From a bacterium (GTDB taxonomy: Bacteria; Patescibacteriota; Minisyncoccia; Moranbacterales; UBA2206): 33,053 bases of DNA. Position numbers and translations under genes: made by a program. This document shows, one piece after another, positions 2 to 15,322 of this stretch (positions within the stretch are counted from its first letter, which is position 1; the number at the start of each line of letters is the position of its first letter). The notes under the pieces are model-generated. The model saw only the letters and a program-made list of their open reading frames with translations, had not been told where the DNA came from and did not search any database. The DNA lies in the NCBI GenBank assembly GCA_021785125.1, contig JAJYGF010000024.1:1-33053 (forward strand), in the 5' to 3' direction.

Positions 2-580
2 TTAATACTCCGTTTTTTTCAATCCTCCCTTTTCGATGAAAGTGGTTAATATTTGAACATCCAGCAGATATGATTTCTGCCGGCGCGAATCTTCTTTCCC
101 CTCTTTTTGAAACTGGAATATGCACCCCACTTCCTTATTCTTGAAAAAGTCCCCTTCGATGAAATGACTCATCACTTCGGGTATCCAGGAAACGACGTCG
201 ATGATGGAGTGTCCGTATTTATCGGCCTTGCCGCAAGGAGCATGAAAGCCGACATAGAGATGTTGAAGCTTTTTGAGCTCCATCCCATCTACTATGTTTC
301 CATACACGAAATCCATATCGGATGTCCTATGCTCCCGGTAATTCTTTGCGAATATGAGCGGCCCGCCATAAAAATCGACGGGATGAAGGACATTGCAGCC
401 CAAGACTTTTCTGAGATGGGCTATCGTGTCCGCGTGTCTGTCAGAGCAGAAGAAGCCCTGAACCTCCTCGGGTCTGCCAAACACCTCCTTAGCTTCCGGG
501 CTTTCCATATTAATAAGAATACCCGCCTCCTTTAGGCTCTCAACAACGCTGCATTCCTTCTTTGTCAAAACCCTTGGCAT
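2..580 (-). CDS. Beta-carbonic-anhydrase-like protein
   Basis: A 192-residue protein of uncertain function. It carries the two signature pieces of a beta-carbonic-anhydrase zinc site: a C-x-D motif (Cys45, Asp47, followed by Arg48 and His49) and an H-x-x-C-G motif (His113, Cys116, Gly117), with a Gly-Gly-Pro segment (72-74) between them. Beta-class enzymes bind zinc through Cys-His-Cys and pair Asp with Arg in C-x-D-x-R; here that Arg position is His49, so catalysis is uncertain. No signal peptide or membrane segment is visible, so it is probably cytoplasmic. The ATG is preceded by AAAGGGGG at SD distance and by a well-formed promoter (652-680), so it can be expressed apart from the Hyf-like operon upstream. 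The carbonic anhydrase relation rests on motifs only; it could be a non-catalytic relative. Confidence 0.6.
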   Translation of the reverse strand: MPRVLTKKECSVVESLKEAGILINMESPEAKEVFGRPEEVQGFFCSDRHADTIAHLRKVLGCNVLHPVDFYGGPLIFAKNYREHRTSDMDFVYGNIVDGMELKKLQHLYVGFHAPCGKADKYGHSIIDVVSWIPEVMSHFIEGDFFKNKEVGCIFQFQKEGKEDSRRQKSYLLDVQILTTFIEKGGLKKTEY

Positions 581-695: not shown

Positions 696-2255
696 CTACA
701 TATCTGTCCCAGAATAGCTCAGATTGAGCGATTTGTTGCAAATCGGAAAATCCGGAACGATGTTGCCGGGTCCCAAAATTCCAAACAATGCCCAATTACA
801 GAACGACGGATCGCGTGGAAAACATCTCTCGATCACTCCGTCCTTGATTTCCAAAGCGTACAAAATTTCTCCCCGCCATGATTCCACCGCCCCGATCGCA
901 AAACCATCTTTGATCTCGATCGCCGTCATGATCTCGCCATCCGCCATCTCGGAAACCATCTTCTCGATGAATCCCATCGTCTGTTCCAATTCATCCAGGC
1001 GCGCCTTGTATCTCGCATACACATCGCCAGTATTCTTCGTTACGACCGGCATCGGATATTCGCCATAGGCCGCGTACGGATAATCCCGCCTGACATCGCG
1101 ATCCACTCCGGAAGCGCGCGCCGACAATCCGACTGCACCGAAAGCTAGAGCCGCTTCTTTCGGCAGGACTCCGGTCGTCTGCAGACGGTCCAAAAATCCA
1201 TCCGAAGCCAAAGCCAGCTCAACCACTTCTCTCATTTCCCAATAGGCTTCTTTGGCTGTTTCCAAAATATCCTGCAATTGCTCTTTTGTGAAATCTTGGC
1301 TCAATCCGCCCGGCACGATCATCCCGCGCCAAAAACGATTGCCTAGGACGCGCGCGGAAAGCCGCATTATCCTTTCCTTGATGCGGAAGCCGTTGGCCGC
1401 CACAAAACTGTATCCGGTTCCCATGCCGCCGATGTTGGCCAAATCATGGACGTGCATCGTCATCCGCTCCAATTCATTCAGAAGAGAGCGCAGCATCTTG
1501 GCGCGCTTCGGAATTTCGATTCCCGCGATCGCTTCGACGGCCTGGCAATATGCCAAAGCGTTGGCCGCCGCCATGTCGCCGGATAATCTTTCGATGAATG
1601 GCAGTCCTTCTCCGACAGTTTTGCCTTCCAAGATCTTTTCAACTCCTTTATGCGTGAAAAATAATTTACCTTCCAAGTTGATAATCCTTTCGCCGGCCAC
1701 GTTGAAGCGGAAATGGCCCGGCTCGATGACCCCGGCATGAATCGGTCCGACCGGAATCTCATATATCCCCTCACCTTCCACATGCTGCATCGGATATGGC
1801 ACATCGGCATGCTCCATCTTCGCGTTCCAAGCAAAATCCTTGCGGAGCGGGAAAGTCCCTTCCGGCACATTTTCATGATGGATCAATCTCCTAAGATCCG
1901 GATGGCCTTTCGGCTCAATGCCGAACATGTCATGCAGATATCTCTCATACCAATGCGCCGCCGCCACAGTTGCCGTGATCGACGAATACCAAGCATCCTG
2001 TTCCGGCACTTCCGCCGACAGCACCAATCTTTCATGCGCCGCATCATTGGAGAAAACCGCATGCAATTCAAACGCATGTTTCTCCTGCCGGTTGTCAGCG
2101 GCAAAAAGAAGCGAAAGCGCCAATCCATGTCTTCCGACCAATGCCGCCGCTATTCTGGACAGATCGTTGCGCGAAACTTCCGCGCGGACGATGCCCGGAG
2201 CTTCATAAGTCGTTCTTGCCTCTTGGAATTCGGCGATAATTTCTACAGATTTCAT
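696..2255 (-). CDS. HyfG/HycE-like (NuoC-NuoD fusion) subunit lacking NiFe ligands
   Basis: A 519-residue peripheral subunit of a hydrogenase-4/complex-I-type complex. Residues about 1-135 resemble the 30-kDa NuoC domain. From about 165 on it is a NuoD/HyfG-type large subunit, beginning with the conserved PVGPIHAGVIEPGHF stretch. In true group 4 hydrogenases one CxxC lies near the start of the large-subunit domain and one near its C-terminus. Here the first region reads SGDMAAANALAYC (225-237) and the C-terminus ends DFPICNKSLNLSYSGTDM (502-519), with only a lone Cys506. The NiFe centre therefore cannot be ligated in the known way, and hydrogenase activity is not expected. The pattern fits Ehr-type complexes and NuoD-like relatives. 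The start shares one base with the upstream stop (TAATG), implying translational coupling. It is the last gene of the five-gene operon. Confidence 0.85.
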   Translation of the reverse strand: MKSVEIIAEFQEARTTYEAPGIVRAEVSRNDLSRIAAALVGRHGLALSLLFAADNRQEKHAFELHAVFSNDAAHERLVLSAEVPEQDAWYSSITATVAAAHWYERYLHDMFGIEPKGHPDLRRLIHHENVPEGTFPLRKDFAWNAKMEHADVPYPMQHVEGEGIYEIPVGPIHAGVIEPGHFRFNVAGERIINLEGKLFFTHKGVEKILEGKTVGEGLPFIERLSGDMAAANALAYCQAVEAIAGIEIPKRAKMLRSLLNELERMTMHVHDLANIGGMGTGYSFVAANGFRIKERIMRLSARVLGNRFWRGMIVPGGLSQDFTKEQLQDILETAKEAYWEMREVVELALASDGFLDRLQTTGVLPKEAALAFGAVGLSARASGVDRDVRRDYPYAAYGEYPMPVVTKNTGDVYARYKARLDELEQTMGFIEKMVSEMADGEIMTAIEIKDGFAIGAVESWRGEILYALEIKDGVIERCFPRDPSFCNWALFGILGPGNIVPDFPICNKSLNLSYSGTDM

Positions 2256-3721
2256 TAGCTTATGGTTTTAACGATTTCGTTTATAAACTCGGTGCCGGAA
2301 TGGCTCGTCAGGACGAATGACAGGACGACCGCGGCCGCCAACTGAATAGCAATGATGGTGTGGGTCATGTTCCAGCCTTCTTTTTCCATATGCTCCTTGA
2401 TTTCCGCATGCTCTCCGTCTTCAAACAGCAGTCTGAAAGTCAATCCGAGCATGGCGAAAGCGATCAGGCTCAAAAAAATCATGACTGCGACAGCCAACAG
2501 CCAATGCTGGATGAATATCTGGGAAAACATGGCGTACTCGCTCACAAACAGAAGGGACGGCGGCACGGCGACGATGGACAATATCCCCAGCAGGAAAAGT
2601 ATGCCTGTGTACGGCGCGAATTTCATGAGCTTGCCGATCCGATCGATCTTGGTTGTCTGCCACTTCATCAAAATTTCACCCGCTCCGAAGAACAGGGAAG
2701 ATTTGACCAGCGTGTGTCCGATCATATGCATCACGGCCGCCATGATTCCGATCGGCCCGAACGCCATTGCCAAGGCCAGAAGGCCCATATGCTCAATGCT
2801 GGAATAGGCCAACATACGCTTGTAGTTGTTTTGGATGAAAAGCGCCATGGCCGGCAGGATGACCGACAATGTTCCGAAGACGATGAAAAGCCCGTCGGTC
2901 CAACCCGATCCCCCGAGAGCCATATCCGTGATGTGCTTGAAGCGTATGACCACCATCAAGGCCACGTTCAGCAAGATGCCGGAGAAAAGCGCGGAGATTG
3001 GAGTCGGAGCCTTGCTATGCGCATCCGGCAACCAGGCGTGCATCGGCACCAAGCCGACTTTCGTGCCAAAACCGATGAAGATGAAGATGAACGCCCATTT
3101 TATGATCTCAGGCGAAAGCTTGGCGGCCGGATGCGCCAGATAGGTCAAAGAGAAAAGATCCGCGGCGGGATTGGAGAGATGCGCGGCATAATTGGTCAGA
3201 AGCACTCCCACCAAGCCGAGCGTGATACCGGTCGAACACAAGATGATATATTTCCAAGCGGCTTCCATCGATTTTCTCCGGCCGTAGAGCCCCACCAAGA
3301 AAGTCGAGGATAAAGTGGTGCTTTCCAGGGCCAGCCAAACCAGGACGCTGTTGTTAGTCATGGCCGCAACGATCATAGACAGGACGAAAACCGGCAGGAG
3401 GGAATAGTACAGCTTGACCTGCGCCAAAGACAGCGCGCCCTCGCGATACTCATATTCGATATATCGGAAACTTACAAGAGAAGCTGAGACATAGACCAAT
3501 GCGATCAAGGAAACGATCAGGGCTGAAAAGCGATCCATCAGCCACCAGTCATTCGCCCACTCGGCCGATTGCGCAAAAAGTGCCGGCAAAGACATGGCCA
3601 GAACCATCGCGCCTCCGATGAGCGATGCGGCCAGCGCGCCGTTGCGGACATGTTTATCTTTCTTCAACAGATAAGGCAAGGCGGCCGAAGCCAAAAAAAT
3701 TATGATGATTGCTATGGTCAT
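2255..3721 (-). CDS. HyfF/NuoN-like antiporter-type membrane subunit
   Basis: A 488-residue polytopic membrane protein of the Mrp-antiporter/NuoL-M-N family, closest in type to HyfF. The family's ion-path residues are present: Glu133 in WLALEST (TM5 Glu), Lys221 in GFGTKVGLVPMHAWLPDAH (TM7 Lys) and a further Lys in GHTLVKSSLFF. The broken-helix region after the TM7 Lys (APTPISALFSG) is intact. At the position where the longer HyfB-like subunit has Lys252, this one has Asn252. It should form one ion-conducting module in the membrane arm. It follows the HyfC-HyfE fusion by 4 bp and its stop overlaps the next ATG. Confidence 0.88.
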   Translation of the reverse strand: MTIAIIIIFLASAALPYLLKKDKHVRNGALAASLIGGAMVLAMSLPALFAQSAEWANDWWLMDRFSALIVSLIALVYVSASLVSFRYIEYEYREGALSLAQVKLYYSLLPVFVLSMIVAAMTNNSVLVWLALESTTLSSTFLVGLYGRRKSMEAAWKYIILCSTGITLGLVGVLLTNYAAHLSNPAADLFSLTYLAHPAAKLSPEIIKWAFIFIFIGFGTKVGLVPMHAWLPDAHSKAPTPISALFSGILLNVALMVVIRFKHITDMALGGSGWTDGLFIVFGTLSVILPAMALFIQNNYKRMLAYSSIEHMGLLALAMAFGPIGIMAAVMHMIGHTLVKSSLFFGAGEILMKWQTTKIDRIGKLMKFAPYTGILFLLGILSIVAVPPSLLFVSEYAMFSQIFIQHWLLAVAVMIFLSLIAFAMLGLTFRLLFEDGEHAEIKEHMEKEGWNMTHTIIAIQLAAAVVLSFVLTSHSGTEFINEIVKTIS

Positions 3722-3725
3722 ATGT

Positions 3726-5312
3726 TTAGTCCGTTAAATTGCGCAGTTCTTCCGTGTCCAAAGTGCCGTGCAATTGGCGTATGCTGGCGCTCAATTTGGA
3801 CAAGATGAAGACGCTTATCAAAGTTATGATGAAAATTCCCATCTCGATCAGGATCGGAAAAGTTTTGACAGTGACTAAAGTGAAAAGAGCTAATCCGTTC
3901 TCCAAGACCAGAAGTCCGATGATCTGGCTCAGCACGTTGCGGTTGACCACCATCTTCATGACGCCGAGCATGACCAGAGCAATCGCGGCATACAGCACGC
4001 TGACCAGCGGTATGCTATGCAAAAAAGCGATGTTCTTTATGACGAAAAATGTCACTGCCAGAATGATGGCCGCCAGGAAATATGTCGAGGCCGGACGCAG
4101 GAAGCTCTGCAACTGACCGATCGAAGAACGTTTGTGGCGGATGATGAATGAAAACAGGATCGGCACCAGAATCACCTTCACCAGGATCGTTCCTCCCGCA
4201 AAAAAGAAAAGATGCCATGTTCCTTCTTCGATGCCCAGTGATGCCGCCACGCCAGCGATGGCCAAGGATGTGAGGATATAATAGCGCATGGCTGATCTGA
4301 TCCGCACGCTTCCAAAAAGAAAAACGGACAGAAAGACCGCCAAAGCGGCGAAGAAAATATAATATTCAAATTTCAATCCCGCGTAACGCATGATCACGAC
4401 GGACGCCAAGCCGAAAATAGCCGTGAAAAAAGCGGCTGAGGCATATTCACTCATGCGATAGAAACGCATCTTCACGATGGTCGATTCCAGAAGCGCCAAA
4501 AGAAACATGACAATCAGGATTTTTACCAGCCCGATCAGCAAACCGACAACTATGCCTCCCAGGCCCGAAACGGCCGGCATCAGGCTGGCCGGCAGGATAA
4601 AATTGCCGATCAAGAAAGCAAAAACGGTCATCTTGATGGCTGATGCATATTCCATCATTGCCAGATACGGTCCGGAATATTCCAAAATCATGGCTTCATT
4701 CGTTATGGTCAATTCCAAATGGGTGGCCGGATTGTCCACCGGATAGCGCGCATTTTCGCCCAGCGCCAAAAATACCAGCGCGGAAATCGCGATCCACAAC
4801 AGCGGATTTGCCGAAATCAATGAGGAAGATAGCATGCCATTGACAGTGTATGCCCTTGAAACGAACGCGAAAGTCGCAAAAACGACGATGAGCGTCGGCT
4901 CCAAGATAGCCGCCATGGTCATTTCCCGGCTGGAACCCATGCCGCCGAACGCACTGCCCGGATCAAGCCCGCTCAGAACCAGGAAGACAGAGCCGATCAT
5001 CAAGATTCCGGCGATGAGGAAAAAGTCGCTCATGCCAGCCAAAGCCGCGCCATGAAAGATCGTCGGCACCAGAAACGCAAAGCCCAAGGCGCTCGCGAGA
5101 ACCGCAAACGGAGATGTTCTGAACACCCAGGAAACCGCTTTCGAAAAAACCATCTCTTTCTTCAGAAGAGTTGCCAAAGTATAGTATGGCAAGAATGGCG
5201 AAGCTCCCTTCCTGCCCTGGAAGCGCGCCTTGAAAAAATGCACCAGCCCTGAAGCCAATGGCGCCGCCAGAAGGACGAAGGCAAATTGTATCAACGCGTT
5301 TAAAATGGTCAT
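3726..5312 (-). CDS. HyfC-HyfE fusion (NuoH-like plus NuoK/MrpC-like) membrane subunit
   Basis: A 528-residue polytopic protein that appears to join two subunits separate in E. coli hydrogenase-4. Residues 1 to about 310 are HyfC/NuoH-like, with SSREMTMAAILEP (127-139) and ENARYPVDNPATHLELT (186-202), the conserved loops facing the peripheral arm. Residues from about 313 to 528 are HyfE-like, including VNRNVLSQIIGLLVLENG and a C-terminus ending HGTLDTEELRNLTD. The reading frame is continuous through the junction with no internal stop. NuoH-type subunits link the antiporter modules to the catalytic arm, so a fusion would fix the stoichiometry of the two membrane parts. The ATG overlaps the preceding stop (ATGA). 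Confidence 0.85.
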   Translation of the reverse strand: MTILNALIQFAFVLLAAPLASGLVHFFKARFQGRKGASPFLPYYTLATLLKKEMVFSKAVSWVFRTSPFAVLASALGFAFLVPTIFHGAALAGMSDFFLIAGILMIGSVFLVLSGLDPGSAFGGMGSSREMTMAAILEPTLIVVFATFAFVSRAYTVNGMLSSSLISANPLLWIAISALVFLALGENARYPVDNPATHLELTITNEAMILEYSGPYLAMMEYASAIKMTVFAFLIGNFILPASLMPAVSGLGGIVVGLLIGLVKILIVMFLLALLESTIVKMRFYRMSEYASAAFFTAIFGLASVVIMRYAGLKFEYYIFFAALAVFLSVFLFGSVRIRSAMRYYILTSLAIAGVAASLGIEEGTWHLFFFAGGTILVKVILVPILFSFIIRHKRSSIGQLQSFLRPASTYFLAAIILAVTFFVIKNIAFLHSIPLVSVLYAAIALVMLGVMKMVVNRNVLSQIIGLLVLENGLALFTLVTVKTFPILIEMGIFIITLISVFILSKLSASIRQLHGTLDTEELRNLTD

Positions 5313-7315
5313 ATCGCTATCAATAAAGTTATGATTATCGTCGCCAGGATCAGAAGCAGATAATACTGGATGCGTCCGGTGTGGATCAGCCTGACTTTTT
5401 TAGCCATCCACAAGACAGCTTTGTAGGCCGGATCATACACCCGCGCCTGCCAGTTCGAAACCACTTCCAATGCGAACGTTTTTTTTACAAACCACGGATT
5501 GGTTTTCACTATCGGCTCGGCCGTAATCTGCTTGAAGCGCCGCAGATACAGCAGGAAGAAAAATCTGATCGGAGAAGCGAAGGCCGTAGCCGTATACTCC
5601 ATGCCGGCATCGATCGGCTGTCCGCAATCCCAAGTATGATATTCTCTTTCTTTTTCTTTCTTATCTCGTCCGGCCAGGATCTTGTATGCCAAAACGGCAA
5701 TCATAGAAAACAGGACAAAAAAGAGAAAGACCCGCAACGAAGATATGGCGATGCTCGGAGCGATCTTTGTTTGGACGGCAGACATTTGGCGCACACCTTC
5801 CGTCAAAGCATTTAAAATATTCTTGGCGAACACGCCCATCAGAATCATCAGCCCCCCCAGAACCGCAATCGGCGCTACCATCCGCTTGTCATTTTCCTTG
5901 TCCGCTTCATCTTCATGCCAGTGGGTCCGCGGCAAGCCCAGCATGGAAATGCCGAAGATCTTGACCATCGCAAAAATCGCCAAGCCGCTGACCAGCGCGA
6001 ACATCGGCAGTATCATCATAAAAACAATCAGCGAAGCCGCATCGGAATTAAAAGACCAGATCGACTGGATGAGTGAACGGATGAATCCCCACTCGCCATA
6101 GAAAGTTCCCAGCGGCGGCAAAGCGGCGGAACCTAGGATTATCACCAGGAAGACGAAAGAGAAAAACGGCATCGCCTTGGCAAATCCGCCCATGGCTTCC
6201 AAACTCTTGGAATGGACCTTGCTGATTATGACGCCGCTGGAAAGGAAAAGCCCGGTCTTGAAGATGGCATGGTTAATGGCATGGAATATCGCATACGCAA
6301 ACAAAAGTGTCGCCAAGATCATGGCTTCATGCGAAGAATTCCTGGCCAAAATATACAGCGCCACGCCCAGCATCGTGAATATGATGCCCATATTTTCGAT
6401 GCTGGAATAAGCGAAAGCTTTTTTGATATCTTTTTCCACAGCCGCATGCAGGGCACCGAAAAAAGCGGAGACGATGCCCAATGCGACCACTAGGATGGCG
6501 AACCAAGCCGGAATGCCAGAAATCGCCAAAATGATCCGCAAAAATCCGTAGACCGCAACCTTCAGCATCAGCCCGGACATCAACGCCGAGATATTGGTCG
6601 GGGCTTGCGGATGCGCCTCCGGCAGCCAGATGTGGAACGGAATGAGTCCCGCTTTGGAGCCGAAGCCGAAGAAGAAAAGCAGAAGAGAAACGGCCAGCAT
6701 TTCCGGCGAAAGCGTCTTGGCGGCAACCCCGATGCTTCCCAGGCCGAAATTCAAAGCTCCGCCGCCCAAGATCAGAAATCCGCCAAGGATGGCCGCGGCG
6801 CCCAGATGGGTCATGATAAAATACAAGAAAGCCGCACGGGCGGATTCCTTCGTCTTGTCAGACATAACCAGAAGAAAAGAGGCCACGGACATCATTTCCC
6901 AAAAGAGCAGGAAGCTGATCACATTGCCGGCCAACAGGACGCCGGCCATGCCCAAGATGAAAAATCCAGATAGGAATCGGACCATTTCGATCGGATACGT
7001 CTTCCGGTAACGCCTCAGGTATTCTACGCCATAGATCAGGACCAGGCTGGAAATTCCGGAAACTAACGCAAAAAATATGGCCGATAAAAAATTCAAAGAG
7101 AAGCTGATCCCGAACAAGGTGCCGGTTTGAAAGATAACCAGCTCTCGCCCGGAAAAGCCGGATAAATATGCGACAGACGCCAGAAAACCGACCACGCCGG
7201 ATCCGATCATTAAGACATTGCCGGCTTTGGCAGACTTCTTCAGAAACGACAAAAGGATCGAGGCGGCCATGCCTGCGAAAAATATATAGATGCCGTAAAC
7301 GATGAGATTTGCCAT
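5309..7315 (-). CDS. HyfB/NuoL-like antiporter-type membrane subunit
   Basis: A 668-residue polytopic membrane protein of the HyfB/HycC/NuoL family. Ion-path residues are retained: Glu140 (LLFWEMMSVASF), Lys221 (GFGSKAGLIPFHIWLPEAH), Lys252 (LMLKVAVYGF) and a Lys in HAIFKTGLFLSSG. The C-terminal part has the HyfB-type segment EYHTWDCGQPIDAG followed by MEYTATAFASPI, and a final helix after HTGRIQYYLLL. It is longer than the HyfF-like partner, as is usual for HyfB. It starts 4 bp after the small-subunit stop and overlaps the next gene by 4 bp. It is the likely principal ion translocator of the complex. Confidence 0.9.
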   Translation of the reverse strand: MANLIVYGIYIFFAGMAASILLSFLKKSAKAGNVLMIGSGVVGFLASVAYLSGFSGRELVIFQTGTLFGISFSLNFLSAIFFALVSGISSLVLIYGVEYLRRYRKTYPIEMVRFLSGFFILGMAGVLLAGNVISFLLFWEMMSVASFLLVMSDKTKESARAAFLYFIMTHLGAAAILGGFLILGGGALNFGLGSIGVAAKTLSPEMLAVSLLLFFFGFGSKAGLIPFHIWLPEAHPQAPTNISALMSGLMLKVAVYGFLRIILAISGIPAWFAILVVALGIVSAFFGALHAAVEKDIKKAFAYSSIENMGIIFTMLGVALYILARNSSHEAMILATLLFAYAIFHAINHAIFKTGLFLSSGVIISKVHSKSLEAMGGFAKAMPFFSFVFLVIILGSAALPPLGTFYGEWGFIRSLIQSIWSFNSDAASLIVFMMILPMFALVSGLAIFAMVKIFGISMLGLPRTHWHEDEADKENDKRMVAPIAVLGGLMILMGVFAKNILNALTEGVRQMSAVQTKIAPSIAISSLRVFLFFVLFSMIAVLAYKILAGRDKKEKEREYHTWDCGQPIDAGMEYTATAFASPIRFFFLLYLRRFKQITAEPIVKTNPWFVKKTFALEVVSNWQARVYDPAYKAVLWMAKKVRLIHTGRIQYYLLLILATIIITLLIAI

Positions 7316-7319
7316 ATGA

Positions 7320-7847
7320 TTATTTCTTCGCTGATCTTAATGCGGCTAAGATACCTTTCAAAATTTCTGTCGGGGTCGGCGGATCGCCGGGAATTCTGAC
7401 ATGCACCGGAATGACTTTGTCCACCGCGCCGACGACCGCATATGAATCTTTCCAGATGCCGCCGATGCAAGCGCCGTCTCCGATTGCCACCACAATACAT
7501 GGCTGAGGCGCCGCTTCATAGGTCGTCTTCACGGCTCTTTCTAGATTGCGAGTCACCGGACCGGTCACAAACAGCATGTCCGCATGTCTCGGCGAAGCCA
7601 CGAAGCTCAGGCCGAAGCGGTCGATGTCATAATATGCGTTTCCCAAAGCGGTCAGTTCGATCTCTTCCGCATTGGTCGAGCCGCCATCTACGGCACGGAT
7701 ACGCAAAGAGCGCCCACCATAAAGACGCCTGATCTCTTTTTTGATATCCGCTCCGATTTTTTCAAATTCTTGGTCTTCGAAAGATTTTTTCGGTTCGGTG
7801 ACGCGTGGCCCGAAGAAAAGCATCTTCAATAGTTTCAGCAAAGACAT
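7320..7847 (-). CDS. HyfI/NuoB-like small subunit lacking Fe-S cysteines
   Basis: A 175-residue relative of the small subunit of group 4 hydrogenases and of NuoB, which normally binds the [4Fe-4S] cluster next to the catalytic subunit. The fold markers are clear: YYDIDRFGLSFVASPRHAD, TGPVTRNLE, a GG(I)W segment and IPGDPPTPTEIL. All four ligand positions differ. The CxxC is replaced by Thr58 and Glu61 (VDGGSTNAEEIE), the third Cys aligns with Gly125 (a Cys127 lies two residues on), and the PGC cysteine is Asp155. This subunit should therefore be cluster-free. I chose the ATG at 7847, because MSLLKLL matches the usual start of these proteins; a TTG four codons upstream is possible. No SD is visible. 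First gene of the operon. Confidence 0.82.
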   Translation of the reverse strand: MSLLKLLKMLFFGPRVTEPKKSFEDQEFEKIGADIKKEIRRLYGGRSLRIRAVDGGSTNAEEIELTALGNAYYDIDRFGLSFVASPRHADMLFVTGPVTRNLERAVKTTYEAAPQPCIVVAIGDGACIGGIWKDSYAVVGAVDKVIPVHVRIPGDPPTPTEILKGILAALRSAKK

Positions 7848-8009: not shown

Positions 8010-8408
8010 TTAGTTTATTTTTATCCCATACCTGGTCCGGTGCTTCATGGCTACACTGATGCGTGCGGATTCTTTTTTGATAGCGGCGACAAGCTTGAGT
8101 TCTTCCGCTCTTTCTCTGGCTTCTTCGGCACGTTCAAGATCGATATCCTCCGCACGCTCGGCAGTATCCGCCAGAATTGTCAATTTATTCTTTTCAAGTT
8201 CAATAAATCCGCCCGAAACCGCCAAGCTAGTTTCTTTGCCATCTTTCTTGACAATCATCTCTCCCGCCCTTAGCGTCGCAATATACGGTTCGTGGTTCGG
8301 CAAAATCGTAACCTCCCCGTCCATGACCGGAAGAGTCGCTTGATCAATCGTGTCTTCAAAGACAGTGCGTTCGGGAGTTACAATCTTAAATTTTATTCGC
8401 AAACTCAT
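8010..8408 (-). CDS. atpC: ATP synthase epsilon subunit
   Basis: A 132-residue F1 epsilon subunit. The N-terminal beta-sandwich is recognisable (FKIVTPERTVFEDTIDQATL, then GEVTILPNHEPYIATL and GEMIV), followed by the two-helix C-terminal domain with RAEDIDLERAEEARERAEEL. Epsilon couples the gamma rotor to the c-ring and can inhibit ATP hydrolysis. Length is normal. It is the last atp gene. The space to atpD is filled exactly by an AT-rich repeat, and no SD precedes the ATG. Confidence 0.95.
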   Translation of the reverse strand: MSLRIKFKIVTPERTVFEDTIDQATLPVMDGEVTILPNHEPYIATLRAGEMIVKKDGKETSLAVSGGFIELEKNKLTILADTAERAEDIDLERAEEARERAEELKLVAAIKKESARISVAMKHRTRYGIKIN

Positions 8409-8410
8409 AA

Positions 8411-8525
8411 AATTAATTTTAAATTTTCAATTTTAAATTTAAAATGAAATCTAAATGTCTAAATTTTAAAACTTATGCATTTAGTAATTTAAAATTGATT
8501 TAAAATTTCAAACTTAGACTTTAAA
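8411..8525. repeat. AT-rich dispersed repeat, copy 1 (between atpC and atpD)
   Basis: A spacer of about 115 bp made almost only of A and T, with a self-complementary core (AATTTTAAATTTTCAATTTT and what follows). It aligns almost base for base with 11567-11677, in the same orientation. Differences are a 7-nt insertion (CTTATGC-like) and about a dozen substitutions. It fills the whole gap from the atpD stop to the atpC start. Confidence 0.85.
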
Positions 8526-8526
8526 A

Positions 8527-9909
<1,383 letters not shown>

Positions 9910-9920
9910 TTATTAGTTAC

Positions 9921-9991
9921 AAGTTTATAAAGTTTTTAAAGTTTATAAAGAAATTTCTTACCTTTATGAACTTTATGGACTTTACGAACTT
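9921..9991. repeat. Hairpin of inverted 9-nt tandem repeats upstream of atpD
   Basis: Left arm 9921-9950 is three tandem 9-nt units (TTTATAAAG, TTTTTAAAG, TTTATAAAG). Right arm 9962-9991 is three units of the complementary type (CTTTATGAA, CTTTATGGA, CTTTACGAA). The arms pair over 30 positions with about six mismatches, several of which can be G-U pairs in RNA. The loop is 11 nt. In the atpD transcript this would be a structured 5' leader. Confidence 0.8.
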
Positions 9992-10035
9992 ATTTTGGCT
10001 TATTTAGGCAATATTTACTGATTATGGCTTAAACC

Positions 10036-10064
10036 TTGACTTTTCCCATTATTTGGAGTACAAT
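10036..10064 (+). promoter_or_regulatory. Sigma70-type promoter of the 47-aa gene
   Basis: Plus strand: TTGACT (10036-10041), 17-nt spacer, TACAAT (10059-10064). Each element matches the consensus at 5 of 6. Predicted start is near 10071, giving a leader of about 40 nt that ends in a strong SD (AGAAAGGAG). Confidence 0.8.
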
Positions 10065-10111
10065 TTAAAGTTAGCCTGAACAACGTTTCAATTAACAGAA
10101 AGGAGTATCCA

Positions 10112-10255
10112 TTGAAAAGCATACTAGTTACTTGTTTGACAGCTGCTCTTGTAGCATTGCTAGGAAATTATTTCTTCCACCTGCCCCTCACTCCAGTCGC
10201 AGTTATATATATGATTGGCTATGCCGGCGGTCGGATAGCGGGAATAGTTAAATAG
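10112..10255 (+). CDS. 47-aa hydrophobic membrane peptide inside the atp operon
   Basis: I do not recognise this small protein. It begins with TTG, 6 nt after an AGAAAGGAG SD, and ends with TAG. The peptide starts MKSILVTCLTAALVALLG, continues NYFFHLPLTPVAV and ends IYMIGYAGGRIAGIVK. It has a basic N-terminus (Lys2), a hydrophobic stretch 4-18, a polar turn with His23, Pro25 and Pro28, and a second hydrophobic stretch 29-38. A glycine-rich segment (Gly36, 39, 40, 44) and basic residues (Arg41, Lys47) follow. One or two membrane spans are possible. It has its own promoter and terminator and runs opposite to the atp genes on either side. A small membrane regulator or a type I toxin-like peptide are both conceivable; neither is shown. 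Confidence 0.7.
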   Translation: MKSILVTCLTAALVALLGNYFFHLPLTPVAVIYMIGYAGGRIAGIVK

Positions 10256-10268
10256 CACAGATGCTCGC

Positions 10269-10306
10269 AAGACCCATTTCTTATTGATTTGGGTCTTTTT
10301 TATTTT
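10269..10306 (+). terminator. Rho-independent terminator of the 47-aa gene
   Basis: AAGACCCA (10269-10276) pairs perfectly with TGGGTCTT (10290-10297) and is followed by TTTTTTATTTT. It starts 14 nt after the stop codon. Read from the minus strand it has no U tract, so it should not stop atp transcription. Confidence 0.85.
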
Positions 10307-10604
10307 CCAAACTTTTAAAACTACTATCAAAACTCAAAATGTTTTTAAGCTTTGAATAATATTTTCAAAAAAGATCCCGCACATAACGAGTGCGTTTCTT
10401 AAAATTAATTCTGCCTTAACAAAATATCCACAAAAATCCAAGCGTATGAGCGTTAAGAAAATTTTAGGTCTTCGGACAACGACAGTTGGACGGAGGGCAA
10501 CCAAAATTTTTAGCGAAGGAGCGCCGGATTTGTTTGGATTTTTGTTCGGCAGAGAGTTCTTTTGTAACTTTTCTTGCGGAAAGAAAAGTTAGAATTGTAA
10601 TGAA
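10307..10604. other. Gene-poor stretch with hairpin-ended repeat-like element
   Basis: This space between the small gene's terminator and atpG has no convincing gene. A 48-codon plus-strand ORF (10446-10592, beginning MSVKKILGLRTTTVGRR) lacks an SD, is rich in Phe/Cys/Ser at its end, and terminates inside a perfect 11-bp inverted repeat (TAACTTTTCTT, 5-nt loop, AAGAAAAGTTA; 10565-10591). From memory, similar hairpin-plus-junk-ORF stretches recur in unrelated bacterial genomes, which suggests a non-coding dispersed element. I cannot confirm this here. The hairpin has no U tract on either strand. Confidence 0.5.
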
Positions 10605-11564
10605 CTAGTTTTCAAGGGCTGCTCGCCCCGCTGATATTTCAGCTATCTCCTGCGTGATCTTCATCTGTCTGATCTGGTTATATACAAACGTCAGATCATT
10701 CTTCATTTCTCCGGCCGCATCCGTCGCATTGCGCATCGCCATCATCCGCGCAGACTCTTTCGAAGCGTTCGATTCCAAGATCGCGTGATAGATCTGCATC
10801 TCCAAAAGGCGCGGCAGGATATATTCCAAAACTTCCTGCGGTTCCGGTTCGACCTTATATTCCAATTTGGCTTCTTCCAGTCCGTATTCTTTCGCTAAAA
10901 TATCCATCTCGGCGATCTCTTTTTCCAGCTCGATCTTAGAAATTGGCAGAAGCTGTCGCACTTTCGTCTCCTGAGTAATGGCTGAAATATAATCGGTATA
11001 AAAAATCACCACTTTGTCATATTTTTTCGCAAGATAGTCATTGATCACGATTTTGCCCACGGAACGCACATCTTCCACTTTCGGCAAATAGGTCAGTCCC
11101 GGAAAAGAGGCCACAATTTTCTTGCCCATGCCCATTATATGACCTTCTCCCTTGCGTCCGATCGTTACAAAGTCTATCCTCAAATCTTCATCAGCTACAT
11201 TCGATCTTATCTCCTTTCCTCTCTCATAATTGATCTTCAGCTTGGCCGGATTTCTAATTTCCTCGCGGATCTTTCTGATCATCTGAGCGTTGAAGGGACC
11301 GCACAAACCTTTGTTGGAAGTTATGGCGATAGCCAGGACGTTTTTGACTTCGCGTACTTCCAAAAGCCCGCTGTGCGTCGCGGCAAACGCCCGCGACAGA
11401 TTGGTCAGCACGCTCCAAGCAGTATGGGCATACGGCCGCACCGCCAAAAGACCGGCCACCGCTTTCCTCATCTTGGCAGCCGAAACCATCTCCATGGCAC
11501 GCGTAATCTTCTGCGTGTTGCCGATGGATTTTATTCGTCTTCTAATGTCTCTTGTGCTAGCCAT
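10605..11564 (-). CDS. atpG: ATP synthase gamma subunit
   Basis: The central rotor shaft of F1, 319 residues, slightly longer than the common 285-300. The N-terminal helix MASTRDIRRRIKSIGNTQKI and the TRAMEMVSAAKMRKA segment are canonical. The C-terminal helix contains ARMMAMRNATDAAGEMKNDL and QIRQMKITQEIAEISAGRAA. The extra length lies in the central alpha/beta domain (about 125-215). No SD precedes the ATG; the second AT-rich repeat abuts it. Downstream transcription would have to cross the 700-bp insertion to reach atpD. Confidence 0.96.
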   Translation of the reverse strand: MASTRDIRRRIKSIGNTQKITRAMEMVSAAKMRKAVAGLLAVRPYAHTAWSVLTNLSRAFAATHSGLLEVREVKNVLAIAITSNKGLCGPFNAQMIRKIREEIRNPAKLKINYERGKEIRSNVADEDLRIDFVTIGRKGEGHIMGMGKKIVASFPGLTYLPKVEDVRSVGKIVINDYLAKKYDKVVIFYTDYISAITQETKVRQLLPISKIELEKEIAEMDILAKEYGLEEAKLEYKVEPEPQEVLEYILPRLLEMQIYHAILESNASKESARMMAMRNATDAAGEMKNDLTFVYNQIRQMKITQEIAEISAGRAALEN

Positions 11565-11566
11565 AA

Positions 11567-11677
11567 TTTTAATTTTAAATTTTCAATTTTAAATTTAAAA
11601 TGAATTTCTAAATGTTTAAATTTTAAAATTTAGTAATTTGATCTTGATTTAAAATTTTAAATTTAGAATTTAAAATT
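11567..11677. repeat. AT-rich dispersed repeat, copy 2 (between atpG and atpA)
   Basis: Same element and orientation as 8411-8525. Both contain AATTTTAAATTTTCAATTTT, TAAATTTAAAATGAA, TCTAAATGT, TAAATTTTAAAA, TTTAGTAATTT and CTTGATTTAAAATTT or close variants in the same order. Like copy 1, it occupies nearly the whole space from stop to start. Confidence 0.85.
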
Positions 11678-11681
11678 CCGA

Positions 11682-13217
11682 TTACTGTCCGTTTTGATAA
11701 ACCTCCTTAAATTCCTTGATTGCTTTTTCTAATCCTGCCACCACCTCATCCGTCAATTCTTTCTTCTCAGCAATCAGATCCAAAACTTCTTTTTGCGAAG
11801 ATTTCATATACTTGTGAAAATCATTTTCCCAAGTTTTCACTTTTTCCACCGCCACATCATCCAAAAATCCATTGATGAGCGCATAGATGATCGCGACTTG
11901 ATGCTCAACCGGCATCGGTTCATATTGGTCCTGTTTCAAAACTTCCACCGTCCGCTTTCCTCTTTCAATCTGTTTTCTCGTCGCTTCATCCAGATCGGAC
12001 CCGAATTGCGCGAACGCTTCCAATTCGCGGAACTGCGCCAAATCCAAGCGCAATTTTCCGGCCACTTTCTTCATGGCTTTCGTCTGAGCGGAAGATCCCA
12101 CGCGGGAAACCGACAGACCGACGTTCAAAGCCGGCCGGATGCCTTTGTAGAAAAGATCTGTTTCCAGATAGATCTGACCGTCTGTGATAGAAATCACATT
12201 GGTCGGAATGTAGGCCGACACGTCGCCGGCTTGCGTCTCAATGACCGGCAAAGCCGTGATCGATCCGCCGCCATAATTTTCATTAAGACGAGCTGACCTT
12301 TCCAAAAGTCGAGAATGCAAATAGAAAATATCTCCCGGATATGCCTCACGTCCCGGCGGTCTTCGCAAAATCAATGAGATCTGGCGATAGGCCCAAGCGT
12401 GTTTCGACAAATCATCATACACAATCAAAACATCCTTGCCTTTGTCCATAAAATATTCACCCATCGCGCATCCGGCATATGGAGCGATGAATGACAGAGC
12501 GGATGGATCAGAAGCGCCGGCCACTACGATGATCGTGTGTTCCATCGCGCCATGTTTTTCCAACTCGCCCATGATTCTCGCAATCTTGGATTCTTTCTGA
12601 CCGATGGCGACATAAATACAAATCAATTCCTTGCCTTTCTGATTGATGATCGTGTCGATTGCAATCGCGGTCTTTCCGGTCTGGCGGTCCCCAATGATAA
12701 GTTCGCGCTGTCCGCGTCCGACCGGAATCATCGCATCGATCGCTTTGATGCCGGTCTGCACCGGCACAGAAACACCTTTTCGAGTGATGACACCCGGCGC
12801 GATCTTTTCGACCGGATAGAAAGTTTCTGATTTGATTTCGCCTTTGCCATCAATCGCTTCACCTAGCGGATTTACCACGCGGCCAACCATCATGTCGCCT
12901 ACTGGCACAGAAAGGATCTTGCCGGTCGATTTCACGGTGTCGCCTTCCTTGATGCCCTCATACGCGCCCAAAATCATCGCGCCGACATTGCCTTCTTCCA
13001 AGTTCAACGCCACGCCATATAAAGGTGCCGGGCCCGCCTTCGAGGCCTCGGCGGGTAAAAATTCAAGCATTTCGGACACCATGGCATCCGATAGGCCGGA
13101 AATTTTGGCCACACCATCCCCGATCTCAGTGACAGTGCCGACTTTTTCAGTCTGCGTCGTCGCCTGGAAATTTTCTAATTGCTTCTTCAGTTCATCAATG
13201 ATGTAATCTTTGTTCAT
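11682..13217 (-). CDS. atpA: ATP synthase alpha subunit
   Basis: The non-catalytic nucleotide-binding F1 alpha subunit, 511 residues. Walker A GDRQTGKT is at 176-183. [19 protein letters not shown] and [24 protein letters not shown] are canonical. The N-terminal beta-barrel is unusual: most alpha subunits read roughly EF-x-x-G-V-x-G-x-ALNLE, whereas here EF (52-53) is followed by [13 protein letters not shown] (54-66) before YGVALNLEE. That is about nine extra residues, encoded by a GC-rich palindrome (13033-13055). The rest is normal, so the gene is probably functional. The gap to atpH is 18 bp, with no SD. Confidence 0.97.
13033..13055. repeat. In-frame palindromic insertion in atpA
   Basis: CCCGCC (13033-13038) pairs with GGCGGG (13050-13055), and the interior contains the 10-bp palindrome CGAGGCCTCG (13041-13050). 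It encodes the extra residues PAEASKAG of AtpA and stands out as GC-rich against its surroundings. Confidence 0.7.
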
Positions 13218-13235
13218 ATAAAATATGTGAATAAT

Positions 13236-13637
13236 TTATTTGATAAAATTTAATTTCAAGTTTTTTAATCGCCTAACTATACTTGCATCCAGCAATTCAT
13301 CTCCGACTTTTATAATAATTCCGCCTTTTATCTTTTGATCGATCTTATTATTTAAAACTATCTCTTTTGCTCCGTACTTTTCTTTCAAAAAATCTTCCAA
13401 TTGTTTGGTCATTGTATCTTGTAACTTGTATCTTGTAGTCACTACCGCTTCCACAATCCCTTCTTCTTTGTTCCAGATTTCAGAAAATTTCGAAATGACA
13501 TTTGAAATCAGCTTGAGCTGATTATTTTTTTTCAAAACATTGATGAGATTCGAAATAACCTCGTCAATTTCAGATTGCGATTTATCTTTCGTCGCTTCGT
13601 ATAATGATTTGGCGTATTGTGTCGATGTTATTTTCAT
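13236..13637 (-). CDS. atpH: ATP synthase delta subunit (short)
   Basis: A 133-residue stator subunit (OSCP/delta), shorter than the usual ~175-180. The N-terminal helical domain begins MKITSTQYAKSLYEAT. The C-terminal conserved piece is present as KIDQKIKGGIIIKVGDELLDASI, equivalent to the family's GGxxIxxGDxxxDxS. The shortening lies in the linker between the two. The role is joining F1 to the b subunit. Position between atpF and atpA is canonical. A double palindrome fills the space before it, and no SD is seen. Confidence 0.9.
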   Translation of the reverse strand: MKITSTQYAKSLYEATKDKSQSEIDEVISNLINVLKKNNQLKLISNVISKFSEIWNKEEGIVEAVVTTRYKLQDTMTKQLEDFLKEKYGAKEIVLNNKIDQKIKGGIIIKVGDELLDASIVRRLKNLKLNFIK

Positions 13638-13643
13638 CTATTT

Positions 13644-13697
13644 GTAGGGAACGCATATATGCGTTCCTTTTTCGGAATGCACATGTGCATTCCCTAC
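13644..13697. repeat. Tandem pair of 20-bp palindromes between atpH and atpF
   Basis: GGAACGCATATATGCGTTCC (13648-13667) and GGAATGCACATGTGCATTCC (13674-13693) are both perfect palindromes. They are enclosed by GTAG (13644-13647) and CTAC (13694-13697), so the two halves are also inverted copies of each other with four differences over 24 bp. The unit can fold as two small hairpins or one long one. It resembles a REP- or MITE-like dispersed element. Confidence 0.9.
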
Positions 13698-13699
13698 GA

Positions 13700-14185
13700 T
13701 TATTTAATCACACTATTTATCAACTCTCTGTCTTTATTCTCATCTAATTTTTCCCCGATAATTTTCTCCGTGGCAACCATCACTAGATTAGCAATCTCTG
13801 ATTTCGCTTCCGCCAAAATTTTTTCTTTTTCTTTTTCAATCTGGCGCTTGGCCTGATCCAACATCTTTTCCGACTGATCCTTGGCTTCCGCAATTATTCT
13901 TTCCGCGTCTTTCACGGACACCGCCTCGGCCTTTTCAATTATGTCTTTTGCTTCCAGCCGGGCCTGATGCAACACGTTTTTTTCCTTCTTTTCCATCTCA
14001 ATCAATTTTTTCTTTGCCTCTTCAGCGTCCTTTAATCCTTTCTCAATTTTCTTGGTCCTGTCATTCAGCATTTTCAAAACCGGACCGTACGCGAACTTAT
14101 ACAGCACAGCTAACAAAATCACAAAATTGATGATTTGCGCCAATAATAATTTTCCGTTTATGCCCAGGTTATTTAATAATTCCAT
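13700..14185 (-). CDS. atpF: ATP synthase b subunit
   Basis: The F0 stator b subunit. From the ATG at 14185 the protein is 161 residues: MELLNNLGINGKLLLAQI, a membrane helix (about 14-32), then a long charged coiled-coil (RTKKIEKGLKDAEEAKKKL to the C-terminus). An in-frame ATG at 14221 would add 12 residues (MKVELPNNLLNY). That start lies in the loop of a 13-bp hairpin that looks like an inserted element, and b subunits normally begin just before the membrane helix, so I prefer 14185. Neither start has a convincing SD. It forms the peripheral stalk with AtpH. Confidence 0.9.
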   Translation of the reverse strand: MELLNNLGINGKLLLAQIINFVILLAVLYKFAYGPVLKMLNDRTKKIEKGLKDAEEAKKKLIEMEKKEKNVLHQARLEAKDIIEKAEAVSVKDAERIIAEAKDQSEKMLDQAKRQIEKEKEKILAEAKSEIANLVMVATEKIIGEKLDENKDRELINSVIK

Positions 14186-14204
14186 ATAATTTAATAGATT
14201 ATTT

Positions 14205-14236
14205 GGAAGCTCAACTTTCATGGAAGTTGAGCTTCC
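14205..14236. repeat. 13-bp hairpin around an apparent atpF start
   Basis: GGAAGCTCAACTT (14205-14217) pairs perfectly with AAGTTGAGCTTCC (14224-14236). The 6-nt loop contains CAT, i.e. the ATG at 14221 on the minus strand. If that ATG were used, it would be presented in a hairpin loop. Confidence 0.9.
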
Positions 14237-14245
14237 TACAAAACA

Positions 14246-14503
<258 letters not shown>

Positions 14504-14569
14504 TCACGTATTTGCTTCATGATCCTTGAATAATAAAAGCTTTAAAAAAATTATTTATATAAATTAACA

Positions 14570-15322
14570 TCAATGACCCGCTTCAACAGTCGCCATCTTT
14601 AAAAACACCAGTGTCAGCATCGCAAAAACCAAAGCCTGGATAAAGCCGACGAACAATTCCAAAAACAAAAACGGCAATGGCACGAAATACGGCACCAAAT
14701 TGAGCATCACGATCAAAAGAACTTCACCGGCAAAAATATTCCCGAAAAGACGGAAGGAGAAGGAAATTATTTTGGCGATTTCACTGATAAGCTCGAGGAT
14801 TCCCACGAACGTGCCGATGAAATACGGCTTATGGAACGGATTGACGAAAAATTTCTTGCTATACCTAACTGCTCCGATCGCCGCGATGCCCATAAATTGA
14901 GTAGCGAAAACAGAAATCAGAGCGATCGCCAAAGTCACATTCAGGTCGGCCGAATTGCTCCGGATAAACGGCACGAGTGCGACACGGCCACCCCTGATCT
15001 GATTCACGCCGATCGTGCCCAAGCCCGGCCACAATTCTATCCAATTGGACAGGATAACGAACAAGAAAATCGTCATGACGAGCGGAAAAAATTTTTTTGT
15101 CTGTTTTCTGTCCTGTGTCACGCCGTCGATCAGATTCAAAAAGGCTTCCACGACATATTCGAATATATTTTGAAAGCCTTTGGGGATCAAACTCAGCCGC
15201 TTGCGCAAAACAAGCGAAGCGATAATGATGATCGCGCTTATGACAAGCGTCATCAATAAAGTATTCGTGATCGGAAAACCCGCAATTGTCGTGATTGTTT
15301 CAGGCGTAAGTGAAATCTCCAT
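14570..15322 (-). CDS. atpB: ATP synthase a subunit
   Basis: The 250-residue F0 a subunit, which provides the half-channels for protons. The essential arginine is Arg191 in SFRLFGNIFAGE. The upstream helix contains FVGILELISEIAKIISF, and the C-terminal helix reads LELFVGFIQALVFAMLTLVFL. The ATG shares a base with the stop of the small upstream gene (TAATG), so the two are translationally coupled. Confidence 0.96.
   Translation of the reverse strand: MEISLTPETITTIAGFPITNTLLMTLVISAIIIIASLVLRKRLSLIPKGFQNIFEYVVEAFLNLIDGVTQDRKQTKKFFPLVMTIFLFVILSNWIELWPGLGTIGVNQIRGGRVALVPFIRSNSADLNVTLAIALISVFATQFMGIAAIGAVRYSKKFFVNPFHKPYFIGTFVGILELISEIAKIISFSFRLFGNIFAGEVLLIVMLNLVPYFVPLPFLFLELFVGFIQALVFAMLTLVFLKMATVEAGH

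Follow-up and report, generated by a model that had tools for sequence, protein, structure and literature searches.

Loss of redox ligands in a Hyf-type membrane complex of Patescibacteria and its linkage with carbonic anhydrase and ATP synthase genes

Complex I, hydrogenases and the energy-converting hydrogenase-related (Ehr) complexes are commonly regarded as redox-driven systems. The present analysis concerns an operon for a Hyf-type membrane complex in a stretch of 33,053 nucleotides (contig JAJYGF010000024.1 of GenBank assembly GCA_021785125.1; the whole stretch is hereafter the window) from a bacterium of the Moranbacterales, Patescibacteriota. The complex lacks all the known redox ligands, and its operon lies between an ATP synthase operon and a gene for a carbonic anhydrase (CA)-like protein, referred to as CAL. 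Loci and genomes are labelled L and G followed by three digits; G000 is the window's own genome, which is complete (917 kb), and the window starts at the first base of its contig 9.

The function of Ehr complexes has been described as unknown (PMC10284858) and they are suspected to be redox-coupled (PMC6349859). The window complex resembles them in its HyfB/C/E/F/G/I set, in a HyfG without the NiFe CxxC pairs and in the motifs SGD and NKSxNxSYSG, but differs in the small subunit HyfI, where the tested relatives (L058; L112-L117) have four cysteines and the window clade has none. This four-cysteine site occurs in every Ehr relative examined from outside the candidate phyla radiation (CPR), though the papers state no such criterion. 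An earlier reading of the window from its letters (the sequence-only reading) had stated that Ehr complexes lacking NiFe ligands are described, and the available text of Jaffe et al. 2020 (PMC7304191) indeed reports monophyletic CPR large subunits without metal-binding cysteines, probably of the same lineage; that text is silent on loss of the small-subunit cluster, on CA and on ATP synthase. The loss of NiFe ligands from the CPR large subunit was thus published in 2020, whereas no report of HyfI cluster loss, of CA exchange or of CAs linked to Ehr or Patescibacteria ATP synthase operons was found in the main texts of the open-access literature.

Two described systems join complex-I-type proton subunits to the hydration of CO2. 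In DAB2, hydration driven by the proton-motive force (PMF) is joined to a complex-I-type proton subunit (PMC13144422), and in NDH-1MS the antiporter subunits take over protons from CO2 hydration (PMC6981117). The DAB/DAC systems (DabAB, MpsAB) resemble the present locus in combining a complex-I-type proton subunit with a beta-CA-type protein without electron transfer; however, DabA (PF10070) has no Pfam match in the operon or in CAL, and the locus has an entire Hyf-type complex beside free-standing, exchangeable CAs. Compared with the NuoL-type DabB, the two Proton_antipo_M proteins of the operon are both Hyf-type. NDH-1MS, with CupA/CupS, likewise brings together antiporter modules and CO2 hydration but is driven by ferredoxin/plastoquinone redox, and the window has no Cup protein. 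Subunit homology is shared with the group 4 [NiFe] hydrogenases (Hyc/Hyf, Mbh), from which the window complex differs in lacking the NiFe and Fe-S ligands and HyfA/HyfH. It differs from Mrp antiporters in that the full MrpA-G set is missing and no small Mrp subunit is matched in the operon. A likeness in gene adjacency is found in Acidithiobacillus caldus, where a hyf cluster immediately adjoins a beta-CA gene and was read by its authors as an H2-evolving hydrogenase (PMC3826726).

A Hyf-type complex without known redox ligands

HyfG aligns with Escherichia coli HycE (E = 5e-65) and Pyrococcus MbhL (3e-43), and HyfI with MbhJ (2e-28) and HycG (4e-27), all of solved structure. In these alignments the NiFe motifs RVCGIC and DPCYSC (RxCGxC and DPCxxC) are replaced by RLSGDM and NLSYSG in HyfG, and the four Fe-S cysteine columns of HyfI hold T58, E61, G125 and D155, so that both losses claimed by the sequence-only reading are borne out. 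Its description of Cys506 as the lone cysteine of HyfG does not hold, since other cysteines exist and the position varies between C and I. The replacements are themselves conserved: among 38 main-clade sequences the HyfI columns are T/S in 36, E in 38, G in 38 and D in 34 (N or E in four), D124 is kept in all 38, and the HyfG columns are conserved across the clade as S225-G-D227 and NLSYSG. The lost ligand sites hold no alternative conserved set of Cys/His residues. HyfI Cys127, two residues past a ligand column, is conserved in part, but is Ile in part of the main clade and in all the deep members, which rules it out as an alternative ligand. A gain of D227 jointly with cluster loss is also ruled out, as D227 is present in four-cysteine Ehr of Proteobacteria and Actinobacteria and only L058 has Val.

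Two hallmarks of complex I are missing as well, namely the N2 cysteines of NuoB and the quinone-site Asp-Tyr of NuoD, the latter being Ser-Gly in the aligned HyfG. The ferredoxin-type HyfA/HyfH, which the sequence-only reading had reported missing, are absent from the operon, and no HyfH-type gene was found in the complete genome. Fer4 matches above cut-off occur there only in the pyruvate:ferredoxin oxidoreductase (PFOR) operon (contig 8, L107) and in a HoxFU-like diaphorase-type gene adjoining HypD (contig 2, L108). A separate soluble hydrogenase is probable, given the diaphorase beside HypD, and the genome is thus not hydrogen-free, these genes lying away from the operon.

The operon is intact and contiguous, as had been described, and lies 162 bp behind the ATP synthase operon. 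The gaps from HyfI to HyfG are +4, -4, +4 and -1 bp and therefore indicate a single operon. The features, all on the minus strand, are as follows.

2..580, minus: CAL, beta-carbonic-anhydrase-like protein, 192 aa, with C45-x-D47 and H113-x-x-C116
696..2255, minus: HyfG-like large subunit (NuoC+NuoD type), CGxC and DPCxxC being replaced by S225-G226-D227 and N-L-S-Y-S-G
2255..3721, minus: HyfF-like antiporter subunit; E133 and K221 conserved; Lys of transmembrane helix 8 is Asn252
3726..5312, minus: HyfC-HyfE fusion (NuoH-like plus NuoK-like)
5309..7315, minus: HyfB-like antiporter subunit; E140, K221 and K252 conserved
7320..7847, minus: HyfI-like small subunit, 175 aa, without the proximal Fe-S cluster (T58, E61, G125, D155)
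8010..15322, minus: F1Fo ATP synthase operon (AtpC, D, G, A, H, F, E, B; from AtpB at 15322 down to AtpC at 8010)

Profile scores from Pfam/NCBIfam agree with these assignments (Complex1_49kDa 1e-41, Complex1_30kDa 1e-22, Proton_antipo_M 1e-49 and 7e-52, NADHdh 9e-24, Oxidored_q6 1e-23). HyfC and HyfE are two separate genes in Uhrbacteria. The c-subunit (14246-14473) was inspected against the known Na+ motif and lacks that signature, and the ATP synthase is therefore taken as the H+ type, as the sequence-only reading had it.

The ion path is intact. HyfB E140/K221/K252 and HyfF E133/K221 are kept in 37-40 of 38-40 clade members, which upholds the earlier claim for these residues, and conservation extends to acidic residues in the HyfC part. 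Mean identity is higher in the cytosolic subunits (HyfI 69%, HyfG 60%) than in the antiporter-like ones (HyfF 47%, HyfB 46%); the cofactor-free module is therefore under selection and not a relic.

In a HyfG tree of 66 rows, all 42 main-clade sequences fall on a single branch (Shimodaira-Hasegawa-like approximate likelihood ratio test 100), so that the cluster-free clade which the sequence-only reading proposed to look for does exist. Its hosts are Moran-, Uhr-, Falkow- and Peregrinibacteria, with a few metagenome-assembled genomes (MAGs) labelled Acidobacteriota; the closest named relative is a Moraniibacteriota MAG (HyfG identity 72%). The cluster-free members in the Acidobacteriota-labelled MAGs (L042, L044, L047) have no CA neighbours and reflect transfer or mis-binning. 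The complex is present in 14 of 55 relatives, a sample mostly of the same family and order, and 17 of 380 genomes drawn evenly across the phylum give a match, some of these being ordinary hydrogenase or complex-I subunits.

Of the four HyfI cysteines a deeper Patescibacteria clade retains one, most of its members reading T, C, D, D in these columns. All four are present in L058 of Nitrospirota, in the Patescibacteria hydrogenase/complex-I homologues L081, L082 and L084, and in the plasmid-borne Ehr of Methylocalor, Rhodococcus, Methylovirgula, Rhizobium, Azospirillum and Paraburkholderia (proteobacterial and actinobacterial, L112-L117), whose HyfG, where read, has SGD and NKSxNxSYSG in common with the window clade. 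The loss of NiFe is therefore old and shared by Ehr at large, and the loss of the HyfI cluster is the mark of the present lineage. A single clade of main and deep members is compatible with the data (approximately unbiased test, p 0.67); a single loss of the cluster is accordingly possible and two independent losses are an unnecessary assumption.

Carbonic anhydrases at the operon ends

The sequence-only reading was right about an Ehr-type complex without NiFe, with its cluster lost and its ion path intact, but overlooked the adjoining CA-like gene and its recurrent linkage. The CAL reading frame begins 115 bp past HyfG. CAL alone has no Pfam match, but its sequence conforms to the beta-CA ligand pattern of Cys-His-Cys for Zn with an Asp two residues past the first Cys. 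Among nine homologues, 17-24% identical to the window protein, C45, H113 and C116 are invariant and D47 is present in all nine (by eye). An AlphaFold2 model of CAL (predicted local distance difference test 85) gave Foldseek matches in PDB that are nearly all beta-CAs (best E 1.7e-3, probability 0.99), and the top 50 matches for the model of the L052 homologue are all beta-CAs (best E 4e-4). Over both models the match probabilities are 0.9-1.0 and the template modelling (TM) scores 0.3-0.5; the beta-CA fold of CAL is therefore probable and not proven.

Some observations concern CAL in this and other genomes. Positions 1-105 of the window match the end region of contig 24 (G000:C24:13306-13410) over 105 bp, a span in which CAL residues 158-192 are identical. 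A gene for leucyl-tRNA synthetase stands near this match, as it does downstream of the complex in L019, L022 and L049; contig 24 therefore probably continues the window. In G003 (L004/L019/L086) the CAL homologue behind HyfG carries an internal TGA (pseudogene or assembly error), and a CsoSCA-like CA is found elsewhere in that genome (contig 21). L039, L041 and L052 encode another CAL-like protein, degenerate and about 200 aa long, downstream of HyfG at the other operon end, of which only that of L052 was scored by the CAL profile (2e-7).

By our count, CA genes stand at one or both operon ends in 26 of the 35 main-clade loci with judgeable flanks, two of these genes being on the opposite strand. 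Four families are represented. One is CAL. Another is a CsoSCA-like beta-CA, several members of which pass the cut-off of Pfam CsoSCA_cat (best 6e-9) and which matches PDB 2fgy (E 9e-4). The third is a tandem Pro_CA_2 protein that scores as well as 2e-19 in Pfam and has the motifs C-x-D/E-x-R and HHxDC. The fourth is a true gamma-CA with Cam/CcmM similarity (PDB 3kwc, 4e-36, and 1thj, 1e-32), whose three metal His are present in L020 and L027. By parsimony the type of CA changes at least 15 times on the HyfG tree, and the downstream slot alone accounts for at least eight changes within the Moran/Falkow group. Different CAs stand beside HyfG sequences that are 99.2% identical in L024 and L026, and 89% identical in L027 and L028. 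With 31 such genes in the 55 genomes and shared ancestry ignored, the chance of a nearby CA at a random locus is about 0.002. No CA neighbour occurs at the plasmid-borne Ehr loci with annotated neighbours; at one of them, on Methylovirgula plasmid pHY1 (L114), the four-cysteine Ehr operon adjoins a second, N-ATPase-like ATP synthase operon (order beta-epsilon-AtpI-A-C-delta-alpha).

The linkage extends to the ATP synthase. For the three profiled families in the 55 genomes, 26 of 31 CA genes lie within 2 kb of AtpC or of an end of the complex (Pro_CA_2 18/19, CAL 3/3, CsoSCA-like 5/9). The AtpC regions with a single-domain Pro_CA_2 and no complex are L087-L104, from G001, G002, G005, G008, G009, G013, G022, G028, G033, G049 and G054; once such a case includes a gamma-CA and once CAL. 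Since CA thus stands behind AtpC without the complex, it is linked to the island of ATP synthase and complex rather than to the complex alone: a CA-ATP synthase linkage exists in its own right, and an exclusive tie to the complex is ruled out. Evidence for a complex-specific part comes from the CsoSCA-like CA, which 7 of the 14 complex-bearing genomes carry but only 2 of the other 41 (Fisher p 4.6e-4, relatedness uncorrected), and from CAs that flank complexes with no nearby ATP synthase gene (L053/G036 on both sides, L070/G024, L073).

A tentative proton circuit and its rivals

With no electron path, the complex would be limited to ion gradients or non-redox chemistry. The sequence-only reading had proposed an ion antiporter or a chemically driven pump, and either may hold. 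The preferred though tentative reading is that the complex translocates ions without redox chemistry, as part of a proton circuit that includes CA and the H+-ATP synthase and is linked to CO2/bicarbonate. Derived from Ehr and shaped like complex I, it would no longer carry electrons, and protons would most likely be translocated, or H+ swapped for another cation, through HyfB, HyfF and HyfC. CA at the cytoplasmic face, including the window protein if it is active, would interconvert CO2 + H2O and HCO3- + H+, and the complex, in contact with CA or not, would take the resulting protons across the membrane, driven by the PMF common to it and the ATP synthase/ATPase. Hydration of CO2 would be pulled one way, for bicarbonate retention and pH control, as in DAB and NDH-1MS, which the complex would resemble in its working though it belongs to neither. 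PFOR provides a source of CO2 in the genome. A more doubtful extension is that the old NiFe/Fe-S pocket (HyfG S225-G-D227; HyfI E61, D124, D155) handles or senses protons, bicarbonate or a redox-inert cation, thus coupling CO2 hydration by exchangeable CAs to electron-free ion translocation. Exchange of CA across two unrelated folds, beta and gamma, speaks for coupling through the reaction rather than one dedicated docking site.

Several observations weigh against this circuit. The same exchange of folds counts against a dedicated docking site of the DabAB kind. The Arg of the Asp-Arg dyad, four residues after the first Cys, is present in the CsoSCA-like and Pro_CA_2 families but absent in CAL, and the TM-scores of the window protein to beta-CAs are below 0.5. 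An adjacent CA is missing at 9 of the 35 main-clade loci that could be read and at most loci of the deep clade. CAL occurs without the complex in G009, and Pro_CA_2 stands directly behind AtpC in about a dozen complex-free relatives, so that the role of the CA may lie with the ATP synthase or with pH control in general. As for consumers of bicarbonate, the genome has no carbamoyl-phosphate synthase, biotin carboxylase or archaeal-type phosphoenolpyruvate (PEP) carboxylase, the bacterial-type enzyme not having been sought. Bicarbonate supply to carboxylases is therefore unsupported, and the result speaks for a role in pH or proton handling more than in carbon supply. In two other genomes, a 502-aa archaeal-type PEP carboxylase-like gene was seen by eye in the sequence about 3 kb downstream of the complex (L078, a distant relative, in G363; L085 in G280).

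The rivals differ in how much of this they explain. A Mrp-like secondary H+/Na+ or H+/K+ antiporter, with HyfI/HyfG as a structural cytosolic cap and the CA part of an ATP synthase/pH-homeostasis island with no mechanistic tie, would account for the intact antiporter residues, the CAs behind AtpC in complex-free relatives and the complexes without an adjacent CA; it sits poorly with a cytosolic module that is the better conserved part, with the enrichment of CsoSCA-like CA where the complex is present and with CAs beside complexes lacking a nearby ATP synthase gene, and we regard it as a serious though rather improbable explanation. That the complex is still redox-active, HyfG/HyfI being fed with electrons by an unrecognised cofactor or a partner encoded elsewhere with E61/D124/D155/D227 as new ligands, is unlikely: the high conservation of the replacements and the presence of ferredoxin-type proteins, PFOR and the soluble HoxFU-like enzyme would fit, but every Fe-S and NiFe cysteine is lost, no Fe-S site made of Asp/Glu/Thr/Gly is known, the genome yielded no HyfH-type gene and the quinone-site Asp-Tyr is Ser-Gly. 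Still less probable is an energy-conserving direction, in which hydration of fermentation-derived CO2 would drive proton export that feeds the ATP synthase; the gene order ATP synthase-complex-CA and PFOR as a CO2 source agree with it, but so small a cell soon loses its CO2, and at near-neutral pH hydration releases only a few kJ/mol of free energy by our estimate, which is small against a normal PMF. A degenerating, functionless hydrogenase relic would explain the loss of all the catalytic ligands, but is scarcely credible in view of intact frames, a tight operon and replacement residues that are invariant among 42 homologues from several phyla, a conservation that contradicts it.

Implications

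The adjoining CA-like gene and the recurrent CA linkage offer, for the first time, a concrete pointer to a partner reaction of this complex that is not redox chemistry. A conserved cofactor-free clade would be a natural experiment in which the E-channel and antiporter modules operate without incoming electrons, and the recurrent, non-orthologous CA neighbours provide a testable candidate partner for Ehr complexes. The presence of CAs at ATP synthase operons further hints at a CO2/bicarbonate side of energy metabolism in the ultra-small, fermenting Patescibacteria.

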